Assembly (NCBI GenBank): GCA_017524805.1
Contig: JAFXUX010000023.1
Span: 1-64,000 of the forward strand
Direction: 5' to 3'
Length of the DNA: 64,000 nucleotides
Source: Candidatus Methanomethylophilaceae archaeon
GTDB taxonomy: Archaea > Thermoplasmatota > Thermoplasmata > Methanomassiliicoccales > Methanomethylophilaceae
The translations under genes were made by a program, and so were the position numbers. The stretch's first letter is position 1. The number at the start of each line of letters is the position of its first letter. Under the pieces are notes generated by a model, which was not told the DNA's origin, did no database searches, and saw only the letters and a list, made by a program, of their open reading frames with translations. Below, piece after piece: positions 45,129 through 63,749 of this stretch.

Positions 45129-46205
45129 ATGAGCGACAAAGAAAAGAAGAAACTCGTAAACGATGCCATAGGATCTCAGAATTTCAACTACACCCAGTAC
45201 TCTGCGAAGAAATACATGATCATAGCCATAGGCATTGTCCTGTGCGTCGTGTTCTTCTTCCTGGATGTCGTTTTCAGCTCGACGTATATCGATCCGGCGG
45301 TGATCATAGACAATCTGCTGCACCCCGGCAGAGACGACATAATGCACATCATCGTCTTCGACATCAAGATCCCGGTCGGTTTGATGGCCCTGATCTGCGG
45401 GGCTTCATTCGGTTTCGCCGGTGCGATCATGCAGACCATGCTCAACAATCCCTTGGCCAGCCCTTACACCCTCGGAATATCCGCGGGAGCCGGGTTCGGA
45501 GCCGCTCTGGCGATGGTCACCGGTTTAGGAGGCATGGCAGTTCTGGGCGAATACCTGATTCCCGGAAGCGCATTCCTGTTCGCCCTTCTCGCTTGCGGAG
45601 GCATATTCCTCGTCGCGAAAGTCAAAGGGTTCTCGGCCGACATAATGGTGCTGGCCGGTATCGGTCTGGTGTTCTTCTTCCAGGCCTTGCAAGCTCTGAT
45701 GCAGTATCTGGCTTCTCCGGAGGCTCTCCAGGGCATAGTGTTCTGGACGTTCGGAAGCCTGACCGGTTCCGACTGGGAGAACATCCCGATAGTCCTGGCC
45801 ATGTTCGTGATCATCTTCATACTGATCTACCGCAAGGCTTGGTTCCTGACTGCCATGAAGCTCGGGGACAGCAAGGCCGCCGCCCTCGGAATAGACACCA
45901 ACAACATCAGGAAGTGGATGTTCGTGGCGATCTCTCTTCTGACCGCGACCTGCGTCGCGTTCGTCGGTTGCATCGGATTCATAGGCATAGTCGGTCCCCA
46001 CGTGGCCCGCATGATCCTCGGCGAGGACCAGCGTTTCCTCATCCCGATGTCCTGCGTGTGCGGTGCCGCTATATTGACCATGGCGGACGTCGCGAGCAAA
46101 GTCATAGGCAACGGTGTGATATTCCCCATCGGTATCCTGACTTCCTTGGTTGGAGTGCCATTCTTCTTCTACCTGCTCCTCAAGAAAAAGAAGGCGGTAG
46201 CATGA
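45129..46205 (+). CDS. FecCD-family ABC importer permease (second system)
   Basis: 358 residues, ten or so helices after a polar 27-residue N-terminus. AGAIMQTMLNNPLASPYTLG near 105 and GCIGFIGIVGPHVARMILGEDQR near 285 are the family landmarks; SLVGVPFFFYLLLKKKK is the C-terminus. It should pair with the tandem binding protein and the ATPase, whose ATG overlaps its stop by 4 bp. Confidence 0.9.
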   Translation: MSDKEKKKLVNDAIGSQNFNYTQYSAKKYMIIAIGIVLCVVFFFLDVVFSSTYIDPAVIIDNLLHPGRDDIMHIIVFDIKIPVGLMALICGASFGFAGAIMQTMLNNPLASPYTLGISAGAGFGAALAMVTGLGGMAVLGEYLIPGSAFLFALLACGGIFLVAKVKGFSADIMVLAGIGLVFFFQALQALMQYLASPEALQGIVFWTFGSLTGSDWENIPIVLAMFVIIFILIYRKAWFLTAMKLGDSKAAALGIDTNNIRKWMFVAISLLTATCVAFVGCIGFIGIVGPHVARMILGEDQRFLIPMSCVCGAAILTMADVASKVIGNGVIFPIGILTSLVGVPFFFYLLLKKKKAVA

Positions 46206-47008
46206 AGGTCCGCGTGGATAACGTCGGATTCTCATACGGCGACACCCCGGTTCTCAGGGATGTGTGCTTCGAGGCGCTCCCCGGGGAGATCACGACGATA
46301 ATCGGCGCCAACGGCGCTGGAAAGACCACCCTGCTGAAATGCATCGCCGACCTCCATAAGCACAAGGGGGACGTGTATTTCGACGATTAGGTCGTCACCC
46401 GCAAAGACATGCCCAGCATCATGAGCTACATGGAGCAGAATACGGACTGCGAAGCCGAGCTGAACGTCTTCGAGATAGTCCTTCTGGGAATGGTGCAGTC
46501 GCTGTCCTTCTACGTGTCCGAGCAGGACGTCGAGAAGGTCACGGGCGTCCTGAGGCTTCTGGGAATCGAGAAGTATGCCGGACGCAAGATCGGCGAGCTC
46601 AGCGGCGGCCAGAGGCAATTGGTCTTCATAGCCCAGGCATTGGTGAAGGACCCCAAGGTCCTCGTTCTGGACGAGCCCACAAGCGCATTGGACCTGTACC
46701 ACCAGTTCAAGCTGATAAAATTCATAAGGAAGGTCACCAAAGAGCGCGGCTGCGTCACGATAATGACCCTCCACCACCTCGATGTCGCTCTGAAATATTC
46801 CGACAGGGTCGTCGTCATATCGGAGAACACCGTATATGGCGAAGGGTCCGCTGAGGAGATGTTCACCGAGAAGATGCTGGCGGAAGTCTACCGCGTCAAA
46901 GCCGACATCATCAGGGACGCCAAAGGGAACAAGCACATCCAGGTCCTGGAGCCTCTTGACGAGGAGTATGAGGACGATGCCGAAGTGGCCTTCCCCTCAG
47001 AGGAATGA
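46202..47008 (+). CDS. FecE-type ABC importer ATPase with in-frame TAG at codon 63
   Basis: 268 residues if TAG (46388-46390) is read through. Before it: Walker A GANGAGKTT at 35-43 and KGDVYFDD. After it, in the same frame: VVTRKDMPSIMSYMEQ (Q-loop), LNVFEIVLLGM, signature LSGGQRQ, Walker B VLVLDEPTSALD and the switch histidine in MTLHHLDVALK. Termination at TAG would leave a 62-residue piece without signature or Walker B, and an internal start at 46409 would lack Walker A. A complete, undamaged ATPase in a busy operon argues for decoding, probably as pyrrolysine; a point nonsense mutation of a sense codon such as GAG is the alternative. Confidence 0.85.
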
Positions 47009-49679: not shown

Positions 49680-50453
49680 TCACATCCCTATGATCTGCTC
49701 TATCTTTTTCTTGACCGCTGTCAGGTCTTTCACCGCGTCCGATTCCGGATACGCATCCATGAGTGTCTCGCCATTTCTGTCGGCCTGTATCACTGAGCGG
49801 TCGTATCTGATGCGGACGGCTTCGTCCGGTCTCAGTCCGACCAACGACGACATCCTCTTTATGTCCTCTTCGCTCTCGGATTTGTTGATTATCAGGAGGT
49901 TGTTTTTGACCTCCAGATCCTTGGCCATCTTCACGACCTGCCTGGAGACTTCGGCGGACTTGGGGGTAGGCTCGGTCAGGACAGCGTTGCAGTCGAACTC
50001 TCTGGCAAGCCCTCTTCCGAGGATCTCCGGCCCGGCTTGGGAGTCCACGAAAGCTATGTCGTACTTCTCTTCGCATCTGTCCGAGCCCAGATAGTTCAGG
50101 AGCATCTTGACGAGGTTTATCGGGGCGCAGAGGCACCCCCCGCCGCCGTGCTCTATTGCGCCCATGACCACTACGCGTATGCCGTCGGCGTTGACTTTAG
50201 AGTGCTCTTCAATGACCTTCCGGCCGATCTCGGAGATTCCGTCCTCCTCAAGCTCCCTTCCGATCTCATCCCTTTCGTCGGCGATGGTGGGGACTTCCAT
50301 GAACGGTATCCCCAAAGTCATCGCCAGGTTCATGCTGGGGTCGGTGTCGAAGACGACGACCTTCCGGCCTTCGCGCGCCATCATGGTCGCGACGGACGAT
50401 ATGGTGGTGGTCTTTCCGACTCCTCCTTTTCCTGTCGAGATTACGGTCTTCAT
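49680..50453 (-). CDS. CooC/MinD-type ATPase, probable nickel-insertion chaperone
   Basis: 257 residues. P-loop STGKGGVGKTTT at 6-17 with the deviant Walker lysine, VVVFDTDPSMNLAMTLG, and GGGGCLCAP near 103-111, giving the CxC pair that binds nickel at the CooC dimer interface. FVDSQAGPEILGRG is switch II. CooC loads nickel into CO dehydrogenase; in a hydrogenotrophic methyl-reducing methanogen other nickel enzymes are possible clients. ATG 50453 overlaps the upstream TGA by 4 bp. Confidence 0.85.
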   Translation of the reverse strand: MKTVISTGKGGVGKTTTISSVATMMAREGRKVVVFDTDPSMNLAMTLGIPFMEVPTIADERDEIGRELEEDGISEIGRKVIEEHSKVNADGIRVVVMGAIEHGGGGCLCAPINLVKMLLNYLGSDRCEEKYDIAFVDSQAGPEILGRGLAREFDCNAVLTEPTPKSAEVSRQVVKMAKDLEVKNNLLIINKSESEEDIKRMSSLVGLRPDEAVRIRYDRSVIQADRNGETLMDAYPESDAVKDLTAVKKKIEQIIGM

Positions 50454-51190
50454 TCCGCACACTCGAACGTCTGGGACATCACGTTCATGACTTCGTCATA
50501 TTCGTCCTCAACGGCTTTGCTGGCATCGGCGTATCTTACAACGACCAGATATTCCCCGACGGATTTGGCTTCGAAGGAGATCTTTCCGTTCTCGTCTGTG
50601 ACATAGTTCTGGGTGTCCTCCGCGGCCTTGTCGAAAACCGCGACCTTGACGTTCTTGAGGGGTTTGCCTTCGTAGATGATCTGAGCCGACACGGTCTATC
50701 CTTTCTTGGGCTTCACGCAGCTCAGCTGCATGTCTATGATGGAATTCATTATGGTCCCGGGGGTGCCGGTCTTGGAGATGACCTTCTTCGAGATGACCTG
50801 ATAAGCTGCGGAGCGGTTCACGTTCTTGAAATCTTTCTTGAGGCCGTTGAACCATCCTTCGTCTGTTATGACCCAGATGATGCTGCTTTCGCATCCGAAA
50901 TAGACCGTGTAGATGTCGTCGTCGGTATCGTCGAATGTGAGTTTGCTGTTTTTTTCGGTCGTCTCCAGCTTGTATTCGACATCAAGGGGGCCTTTCTCGT
51001 TGAAGATGGCTATCTTGGAGTACGAAGCGGGTATTGGCCCGTCGGACACCATGCGGTGGCCGTATCCGCCCATGACGGTGACTTTCCCGTCTTTGATCTC
51101 CGCGCCGTAAAGCCAGTTCTCGTGCCCATAAACCATTCTGTTCAGCCTGCGGAGATCTTCGGGGCTATTATTATTACAAACCATGATCAT
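50450..51190 (-). CDS. DUF4198-like protein with in-frame TAG at codon 165
   Basis: 246 residues if TAG (50698-50696) is read through. The part before it has VYGHENWLYGAEIKDG and GGYGHRMVSDG, like the N-terminal strand region of DUF4198 proteins, which are linked to nickel/cobalt transport. The part after it, in the same frame, is IIYEGKPLKNVKVAVFD then VTDENGKISFEAKSVGEYLV, the Ig-like second half of that family. Together they have the normal family length. A GTG two codons after the TAG with AGGAT upstream could initiate the second half separately. No signal peptide is seen. TATA-like AATATATT at 51211-51218 suggests a leaderless start at ATG 51190. Confidence 0.75.
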
Positions 51191-51424
51191 CGTAATACTG
51201 TTTTCGTTGAAATATATTGGCATACTAATTTAGAATTCGTAATAACATTGGGATGAATCAGCCACCGCCCGGTTTTGAAAGCGGATGCCCATGCATTTGC
51301 CATAAAAACCGGCGATTCCTGCTGTATCGGGGCTGTCAGGAAGTATATGGTGGTTCAGGCCGTATTTGCTGAGGTTTATGGATGTCTGCGAGCAAACGAT
51401 GCTGTTCTGCGGCCTCAGAAGTAA
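51191..51424. promoter_or_regulatory. Promoter of the CooC/CooT operon with shared operator half-site
   Basis: On the minus strand AATTAGTATGCCAATATATT (about 51213-51232) contains the TATA box and the same ATTAGTATG and CCAATA words found at 42370-42393. No gene is seen in the rest of the stretch. Confidence 0.5.
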
Positions 51425-58052: not shown

Positions 58053-58850
58053 TCACCGTTGTTCCGTTGCAACATCCGACGTATGCAGGTCATGTATTTC
58101 TTCGGACCAGGGAGGGTACAGCGGGCCATGGCCGAAAAAGACCTCGCGCCTCTCCATGGCCTCCTCGACTTTCTCCCTGATGAGCTTCTCCGATTCTTTG
58201 ACCTTGTCCAGGGGGAGGCCGAACTCTTTGGAGATGCTTTCCAGAGTTTCCGGCCTCTCGTGATGGAGGAATATTCTGGCCTGGACGAACGTGAGCGGCA
58301 CCCTCTCCTGCAGCAGCCACGAGCGGGTCGCGTAGCGGACCTCCCGGAACTCCTCGTCGGTGAGTTTTCCGCCGACGACCCAGCGGCGGAGCTTCGTCTT
58401 ACCTTTTCTCATTGCATTCGCCTCTGTCTCTATCTCTTTCTGACGGGTCTCGGGGAAGCGATCCGGCTCGAATTCAGGAATGTGGTCGCAGTCGCATTCG
58501 AACTCGCTTCCGTCCCATGGGAGCTCCCTGAATCTCCTCATCTGGATATTCGTACGGCGGAGGTCCTCTACTTTGGACCTTTCATCAGATCTTGCGAGTA
58601 CTTGGCACTATTCTTCGAACTCTCTCTTTTCATCTATGCTGAGGCCTTCGTATTCTGGAAGGAATTCTATGGTTCTCGCCAGACCCCAATTACGGGGGAA
58701 TCCGGCATAAATCTCGGATTTCCAGAGGGGAAGGCGGAGTTCGCGCTGGATAATCCAGATCTGCATCGCATAGGCGTACATGTTCTGCTCTTCGTCTTCA
58801 AGGATGTAGTCGGGCCTGTCGAATCTGCATTGCAACGGCATTATCACCAT
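58053..58850 (-). CDS. Plasmid-type protein with sigma-like HTH and in-frame TAG
   Basis: 265 residues if the TAG at 58610-58608 is read through. The first 80 residues (MVIMPLQCRFDRPDYILEDE, then PEYEGLSIDEKREFEE) run straight into CQVLARSDERSKVEDLRR after the TAG in the same frame, and then into the C-terminal half. That half has VPLTFVQARIFLHH, ETLESISKEFGLPLDKVKES, a helix-turn-helix like sigma region 4. The later ATG at 58541 has no ribosome binding site. Its start overlaps the upstream gene by 7 bp. A truncated copy of its 5' end lies at 12665-12767. Confidence 0.65.
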
Positions 58851-59790: not shown

Positions 59791-59838
59791 ATCGAAAAAG
59801 ATACGTAATGGTATCAAATCACCGTCACATTGAATAAT

Positions 59839-60525
59839 ATGTTAGAGTCACATACCAAAAAAGAGCAGTTCTCAGTCAGAATCCCGGAAATAGTTATGGA
59901 AAAGGTAGACGAACTTGTGGGCGAGGGGTTCTATAGTTCCAGGTCGGAATTCGTATCGTCTGCGATAAGGCATACGCTGGTATTCTATTCGGAGCTGAGG
60001 GGCATGTCTTCGGATGTCGCCAGTCTGTACCTTCGCCGCTGCGGAGTCGAATACCTTCCGAAGCCGATCCAAAATCCCACCGATGCCCCGAAGTCTGAGC
60101 CATTCGATACTGGGTTCACGTCTTTGCCCGAGGATAGGATCGCCGACATGTATCGTGCGGTTACCCGTACCTTTTTCGAGTTATTCAAGGGGTTCAAGGG
60201 ACAAAGCGAATCCGAGACGCAGGTTAGCTATAGGTGCGGAGAAGGTGTCTAGAAGAGAGTGGATGTTTTCCTCCGTACCGGGTACGGGTTCAGGAAGAGA
60301 ACGGATTTTGTTAAGGTCTCGATTGTCTGTCTGTTTCTCAAGATGTCCAATATGGATGGGCTTTTGGACGACACTGATAGGTACCTATCGGAATCGAAAA
60401 GTATCATCCTTCAGATCTTTTTGAGCATGATTGGCGATGTTCTTTTTGGGGGCAATCTGGATGACGTAATATCGGGAAAAATCAATGACGTCCTTAATGC
60501 GGATTCTGAAGAAGATGACGTTTGA
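59839..60525 (+). CDS. Ribbon-helix-helix regulator with in-frame TAG at 60250
   Basis: 228 residues if TAG (60250-60252) is read through. The N-terminus EQFSVRIPEIVMEKVDELVG then YSSRSEFVSSAIRHTL is a classic CopG/NikR-type RHH domain. Without readthrough the protein ends at GEGV (137 residues). The same frame continues for 90 codons, KRVDVFLRTGYGFRKRTDF to SEEDDV, ending in TGA. A GTG at 60259 with GGTGT upstream could start the second part independently. Start ATG 59839; a TTG nine bases earlier is possible. Confidence 0.65.
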
Positions 60526-61768: not shown

Positions 61769-61865
61769 CTATTCAAGTGACCTATCGGTTATTATGAACA
61801 GCATGTCAGAATCTGTATATTTTCCATCATATAAGCCATGAATAGGATACGGGCGCGATCGGACT

Positions 61866-61964
61866 CGGAACGAGGCGCCGAGGGTATGGAAAATCCTGAA
61901 CAATAGAATTTTTTCAGAAGATCTGGCTAAGAAGGTGGCGGGCCTGAGGGAACCCGCACGGTAG
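61866..61964 (+). repeat. Dispersed repeat copy B (gene-end remnant)
   Basis: Reads NEAPRVWKILNNRIFSE, DLAKKVAGLREPAR and ends in TAG. Partner of the copy at 56639-56735 in direct orientation, 5.2 kb apart, bounding the island on the right. Confidence 0.65.
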
Positions 61965-62021: not shown

Positions 62022-62333
62022 TCAACAGCCAGACGGTCCGTTAGAATAGATTAATCCCTCAGTAATGTATTCCGGGATACAATCAAGGCAAAAGGGAGGG
62101 ATGATGTGAAACAGGAAGAGCTCGGAGCAATTGTTCTGACTATCGTGTTTGCTTGTTACGGCATCAAGTCTGTCGTAGAGATTTTCTCCGGCATCTGACC
62201 AATTCAAAGATGACGGATCGTAAGAGAGCTGATAGCTGTTAGCCATGGTGATCGGGCGCTTGATAGCTCCAGTTTCCTTGTCTACGGCATTCCCTGCATG
62301 TACTGCACGCGTGGTGAAACGGTATCCTTTCAT
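62022..62333 (-). pseudogene. N-terminal fragment of a Cys/Met-metabolism PLP enzyme
   Basis: From ATG 62333: MKGYRFTTRAVHAGNAVDKE, TGAIKRPITMANSYQL and GENLYDR. This is the start of O-acetylhomoserine sulfhydrylase/cystathionine gamma-synthase-like enzymes (T-x-A-VH-x-G ... I). After about residue 60 homology ends and the frame continues into unrelated sequence. The catalytic lysine domain is missing, so it is a remnant. A TATA-like ATGATATACATC lies upstream. Confidence 0.65.
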
Positions 62334-62517
62334 TGTTCCTCTTGACATCATATTCCAAGATGTATATCATTATTTCCTATAGGAATATATAGAAATTACT
62401 CTGAGATGCGTATATCCAGATTATTTTGTAAAACAATATTTTAAATATTAGATAGATTTTATGTTTTTACTACAGGAAAATAGGTGAATATCTGAGTGAA
62501 ACAATAGGGATAATGAA

Positions 62518-62772
62518 ATGAGCACGAAGGAAGAGTTGATTGGAAGCTTGGAACAGGCTGTAAGTTCGTATAAAAGGGAAGAAGCTGTGGAATTTGCGAA
62601 GCAAGAAGCTGAGTCAATGGTCCGTAAAGGTGTGGAAAATGCTGGAGCGATTGACGCCATCGTGGATATCGAAGTGAACAGAAGAGAATTCGGGTCGTCA
62701 GAGGGTGGCCACAACATTCTTTTGGAAGCAATCGTCCACGCAGTAGCTACAGGAAAACCGTCAATTGCATGA
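62518..62772 (+). CDS. Small protein of unknown function upstream of marker protein 11
   Basis: 84 residues, helical, acidic. KEELIGSLEQAVSSYKREEA with EAESMVRKGVENAGAIDAIV is weakly like the helical cap of corrinoid-binding proteins (B12-binding_2), but the conserved later part is absent. It lies 23 bp before the marker-11 gene with TAGGGATAATGAA upstream of ATG, so it is probably co-transcribed. Function unassigned. Confidence 0.55.
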   Translation: MSTKEELIGSLEQAVSSYKREEAVEFAKQEAESMVRKGVENAGAIDAIVDIEVNRREFGSSEGGHNILLEAIVHAVATGKPSIA

Positions 62773-62795
62773 TAATAAAAATTGGTGGTGATTAA

Positions 62796-63749
62796 ATGGT
62801 TACGATATTGACGCCGGAAGAGGTCCAGAATAAGTCTGGAAGGATGTTTTGCAAACGCTTCATCACCATGGTGGATGAGAAGAACGGGAGGGTGCAGTTC
62901 GTAGAGAACTGTTCATCCGTAGGTCCTGCCGAATGGGACGCAGTGAACAGGCGCCGCAGCGGAGGTGTGATAAGATCTGTCAAGCTCAAGTCCACGATGC
63001 TCATAACCGATGCAGTGATCGGGGAAGAGGAGCTCAAGTTCGGTCCTGTGTCTCAGCAGCTCGGATCTATGGGTATCAAATCGATAAGGATCGAGGGGGA
63101 CGAGGTGCGTTCCAGCTGGTACGGCATAGCAGGTGCCAGTGTAGGCATAGGGGCATGCATGCCTGCATGCCCGGACATCATCCGTACGGAATATCCGGAT
63201 GATTTCAAGATGGGCGGCGCCCATATTGCACACGTGGATATAATTACCCCGAAGATGGTGCGTGTGATAATCGGTATCGATGACACCGATAACAAGGATA
63301 AGGGGGCCACATGGGTCACTGGACTCAAGCTCGGAACACAGTGCCCAATAGGGAAGTTCATCGAACACAAGATAGTCCAGCTCAACCCCGATGCCCCCAA
63401 CAAGACTACTAACTGCTGCGGAACGGCAGTATCATTTGCTGTTAAGGAGGAGGACATTCCGGCACTTATCGAGTATGCAGCGGATTTTATCAAGAAGAAT
63501 TCATTCTCGGAGGATGCGGTCATGACCGTGTTTCAGGGGATTGAGATCCCTGCGAAACTTTAGGATTTCGGATGGAGCTGCAAATCAATATTGTACAAGC
63601 CTGAGGATGCCATCAAGGTGGCAGAGGAAACAGGTATCCAGATAATCTCCCTCTTCGGTAACAACAAAGGTGTGATCGGTGCGGTAGCGGCCATAGGCTG
63701 CTTCGACCTCGGCGAGAAAGCTGCGGGAGTACCCTCGGATTTTGAGTAA
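62796..63749 (+). CDS. Methanogenesis marker protein 11 with in-frame TAG at codon 256
   Basis: 317 residues if TAG (63561-63563) is read through. Core motifs: RVIIGIDDTDNKDKGATWVT, VQLNPDAPNKTTNC and CGTAVSFAVKEED, as in the methanogen marker family related to the TiaS/DUF1743 fold. At the TAG the protein would stop after GIEIPAKL. In the same frame the DNA continues DFGWSCKSILYKPEDAIKVA, then IISLFGNNKGVIGAVAAIGC and FDLGEKAAGVPSDFE with a TAA, which is the family's conserved C-terminus. No initiation site lies after the TAG. GGTGGTGATTAA precedes ATG. Confidence 0.88.

Follow-up and report, generated by a model that had tools for sequence, protein, structure and literature searches.

Does the production of a conserved methanogen protein depend on the supply of pyrrolysine? 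This question is raised by a gene for methanogenesis marker protein 11 that carries an in-frame TAG in the genome of a gut methanogen (Candidatus Methanomethylophilaceae archaeon, assembly GCA_017524805.1). The gene lies near the right end of the window, by which we mean the whole stretch of 64,000 nucleotides analysed here, positions 1 to 64,000 of contig JAFXUX010000023.1 (C23). An earlier note on this DNA had proposed that marker 11 is complete only if the TAG is decoded, and that its production is thereby tied to pyrrolysine. The first claim holds for the copy in the window, in a genome that can plausibly decode TAG; dependence of the host does not follow, as a TAG-free copy is encoded on another contig, C4.

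The marker-11 frame described in that note is confirmed (Table 1): the TAG is its sole internal stop, the terminal stop is TAA, and orthologues at the conserved locus of the genus align with it over their full length (66-93%). If the TAG is read through, the gene matches TIGR03280 over profile positions 3-290 of 292 (E 1.5e-64). The score, which rises by 51 bits from 166.5 without the tail to 218 bits with it, stays below the curated cut-off of 255.8, and the gene further differs from the family by its internal TAG. Codon 256 itself is a variable position, occupied by R, K, E, S, A or Q among relatives, and the alignment with their marker 11, which the earlier note had suggested as a check, reveals sense codons at this site, GAG in the genome G010 and AGG in most others. 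No Rfam match indicative of an RNA element was found in the 56-64 kb region around the gene.

Table 1. Marker-11 gene with internal TAG and adjoining features (window coordinates)
Feature	Position	Strand	Remarks
Methanogenesis marker protein 11 gene, extra (apparently xenologous) copy with internal TAG	62796..63749	+	317 codons + TAA; 93% protein identity to G010
In-frame TAG, codon 256	63561..63563	+	GAG in G010 sister gene; AGG in native copy and most relatives
Conserved 61-residue tail, end of TiaS-like domain	63564..63746	+	
Shine-Dalgarno-like sequence GGTGGTGAT directly 5' of ATG	62784..62792	+	Partly common to G010
84-aa ORF resembling hydantoinase/oxoprolinase C-terminus; probably detached gene remnant	62518..62772	+	
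Cys/Met-metabolism PLP enzyme fragment	62022..62351	-	157 bp DNA match at 71%; weak Pfam match, E 0.017, below cut-off

Judged from the sequence, chance cannot account for the tail behind the TAG. The other 29 marker-11 copies of the genus have 115 invariant columns, of which 25 lie 3' of the TAG site, and the 4 nonsynonymous and 30 synonymous differences to G010 in this part mark it as homologous, constrained in-frame sequence. Inclusion of the tail also extends a TiaS-like match to residue 302. The claim that this copy is incomplete unless its TAG is decoded is thus borne out. In a structure model with K placed at the TAG (mean pLDDT 84), residue 256 is part of a helix spanning residues 253-261, and truncation at this point would delete the greater part of this helix together with three more helices and one strand. 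A 255-residue product is therefore unlikely to work. The modelled protein has a C-terminal domain similar in sequence and fold to TiaS, the tRNA(Ile2) agmatinylcytidine synthetase, but the two have only about 155 residues in common at 22-28% identity, and the window protein is not a TiaS.

That the host reads TAG as pyrrolysine is plausible from its gene content: contig C25 carries tRNA-Pyl directly 5' of pylS, followed by PylD. The use of TAG across the genome points in the same direction. Among 732 predicted genes in the 921 kb surveyed, 33 end in TAG, and 21 of these frames continue as coding sequence, defined as at least 40 in-frame codons with coding-like composition past the stop, versus 57 of 699 frames ending in TGA or TAA (Fisher p 3.5e-14). 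The latter cases (TGA 47/615, TAA 10/84) probably include downstream genes that share the frame by chance. In eight other TAG-interrupted genes, a Pfam domain spans the TAG; these encode MtbB, MttB, an ABC ATPase, a DUF4198 protein, an M20 peptidase, a methyltransferase, a ParA-like and a CobT-like protein. TAG thus often appears to be a sense codon in this genome, in agreement with published findings for Ca. M. alvus and ISO4-H5 (PMC4153887, PMC5011839); a search for full TAG reassignment in archaea found no paper in the literature collection covered. Within the window, an ABC transporter ATPase gene (46202-47005, +) has an in-frame TAG after codon 62, where the syntenic gene of genome G012 has CAG, consistent with a single base change. 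A DUF4198 protein gene (50453-51223, -) has its TAG inside the Pfam match, and further TAG-interrupted open frames are located at 59830-60525 (+), starting with a ribbon-helix-helix domain, and at 58053-58850 (-).

The earlier note had named a second intact, TAG-free marker-11 gene as the finding that would speak against it, and the assembly (a MAG of 1.95 Mb in 47 contigs, 98% complete, estimated contamination 1.54%) contains such a gene at C4:20375-21319. It is 67% identical to the TAG copy and has AGG (Arg) at the equivalent position. The surrounding region of C4 is collinear with three other genomes: G012 (15 kb, 85% DNA identity), G008 and, at greater distance, G010. This locus is the one conserved across the genus; we therefore regard the C4 copy as the native gene. 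Given this assembly, marker-11 production in the host is not tied to pyrrolysine supply. The TAG copy has a different affinity. Its match to G010 (82% DNA identity over 964 bp) comprises the gene only, with no shared flanks, and the tree groups the two as sisters (support 100/94), whereas the native copy has G012 as its sister (100/99); the TAG copy does not group with the nearest relative of its host. Horizontal acquisition from a lineage near G010 is apparently the simplest reading of these sequence data. Marker 11 was found in 97 of 102 genomes of the family, with an internal stop only in the window copy, and a search of viral contigs for marker 11 found none. Two genomes of another genus of the family, G038 and G039, each have two full, intact marker-11 copies (L115, L116, L117, L118), a state that represents an independent duplication or transfer.

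On balance we hold it somewhat probable that the window gene is a redundant marker-11 copy gained by horizontal transfer, in which the TAG is near-neutral, tolerated and most likely decoded as pyrrolysine. The donor would have been a lineage of the same genus near G010 (MAG SIG3), and the transferred copy would have landed in a non-conserved stretch of C23 as an ectopic second gene. Codon 256 would have become TAG after the split from G010, by one base change if the ancestor had GAG. In the case of expression, pyrrolysine is the most likely reading of the TAG, since the host encodes tRNA-Pyl, PylS and PylD and uses TAG mostly as sense. The insertion would fall at a variable, tolerant position, yielding full-length protein, perhaps in lower amounts, and some 255-residue fragment. 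The C4 copy would provide marker 11 in any case, which is why we interpret the TAG as tolerated and not as a control device. A selected, conditional second marker 11, full length only when pyrrolysine is available and thus responsive to methylamines beside a constitutive native protein, would also be compatible with the intact frame and the pyrrolysine genes of the host. We think this very improbable, however, as the TAG occurs in this gene only among the matches in 97 genomes, its position is variable, and constraint on the copy appears relaxed, not tightened.

The relaxation of constraint bears on a further explanation, according to which the copy was redundant on arrival and free of selection, so that the TAG was among its first disabling mutations and readthrough is irrelevant. 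Such an early pseudogene is a serious possibility, although we rate it as less probable than a tolerated TAG. Divergence from G010 is mainly synonymous both 5' and 3' of the TAG (dN/dS about 0.03), the search for further disabling changes found no frameshift and no second internal stop, a Shine-Dalgarno-like site is retained, and the departures of the TAG copy from otherwise invariant columns (5 of 115) are all conservative, which speaks against decay. On the other hand, the branch of the TAG copy is accelerated, with a length of 0.072 versus 0.012 for its sister. Since the split, 24 nonsynonymous and 61 synonymous changes fall on this branch and 3 and 36 on that of G010 (p 0.01), as polarised by parsimony with outgroups; with synonymous sites close to saturation (pS 0.65), these counts are rough. 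If the nonsynonymous excess reflects a neutral spell, it corresponds to about 26 substitutions, from which 0.88 nonsense codons would be expected, 0.62 of these being TAG. The adjoining ORFs, too, resemble gene fragments. The TAG copy thus evolves faster than its sister, with signs of a partial relaxation of constraint, and may already be decaying. A single TAG without other damage is predicted by decoding and by decay alike; 73 of the 106 single-base nonsense changes possible in the sister gene (69%) yield TAG. These data are compatible with an early pseudogene as well as with a translated, redundant pyrrolysine-containing paralogue; we favour the still-readable gene, with the pseudogene close behind.

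In-frame TAG codons in non-methyltransferase genes of this order are already known. Ca. M. alvus has 16 predicted in-frame amber genes, MtxX included (Borrel 2014, PMC4153887), and ISO4-H5 has 46, including the methanogenesis marker gene mmp8 (PMC5011839). Like the amber genes of Methanomassiliicoccales beyond MtmB, MtbB and MttB, the window gene has an ordinary function and carries a TAG that its homologues in relatives lack; unlike them, it is a redundant, apparently horizontally acquired copy alongside an intact native one. New are only this particular gene and its redundancy, which make it a minor example. As a tolerated TAG in a redundant gene of an amber-decoding genome it is a tidy case, and it corrects an attractive claim, because this locus gives no grounds for inferring that a core methanogenesis protein depends on pyrrolysine. 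A note of caution follows as well, as a TAG in a transferred copy alone does not separate decoding from decay.

Two marker-11 copies in one assembly could also result from a false join or from misbinning, with the right end of C23 and the TAG copy, perhaps as the only marker 11 of its genome, belonging to a species near G009 or G010. In the left part of C23, at 9-20 kb and 36-51 kb, identity to G012 is mostly 78-88%, and this closeness over long stretches assigns it to the same lineage as C4. We therefore rejected contamination as the most likely cause of the two copies, and retain it for the right end of C23. There, the region at 64.6-70.6 kb (L050 4636-10586) is 92% identical in DNA to G009, whose long matches average 73%, which points to recent sharing of an island or to a false join; the 13 kb at 51.2-64.6 kb, with the TAG gene inside, lack long synteny. 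Yet the TAG gene is only 77% identical to G009 DNA, its match to G010 begins and ends at the gene ends, marker 11 occupies one conserved locus in both clades with the TAG copy located elsewhere, and estimated contamination is low, as given above. We accordingly consider a chimeric origin improbable. The 64.6-70.6 kb region contains a sulfur/cysteine and PdxS/PdxT-like gene cluster, and an intact homologue of the PLP enzyme fragment is present at about 73.2-74.5 kb of C23. An ATP-binding gene remnant suspected by eye 3' of the TAG gene was dropped, as it had no Pfam support. Finally, a 107-bp stretch of the window at 61844-61950 recurs in G008 and G012 at 96-97% identity and in partial form elsewhere, and represents a short dispersed repeat.
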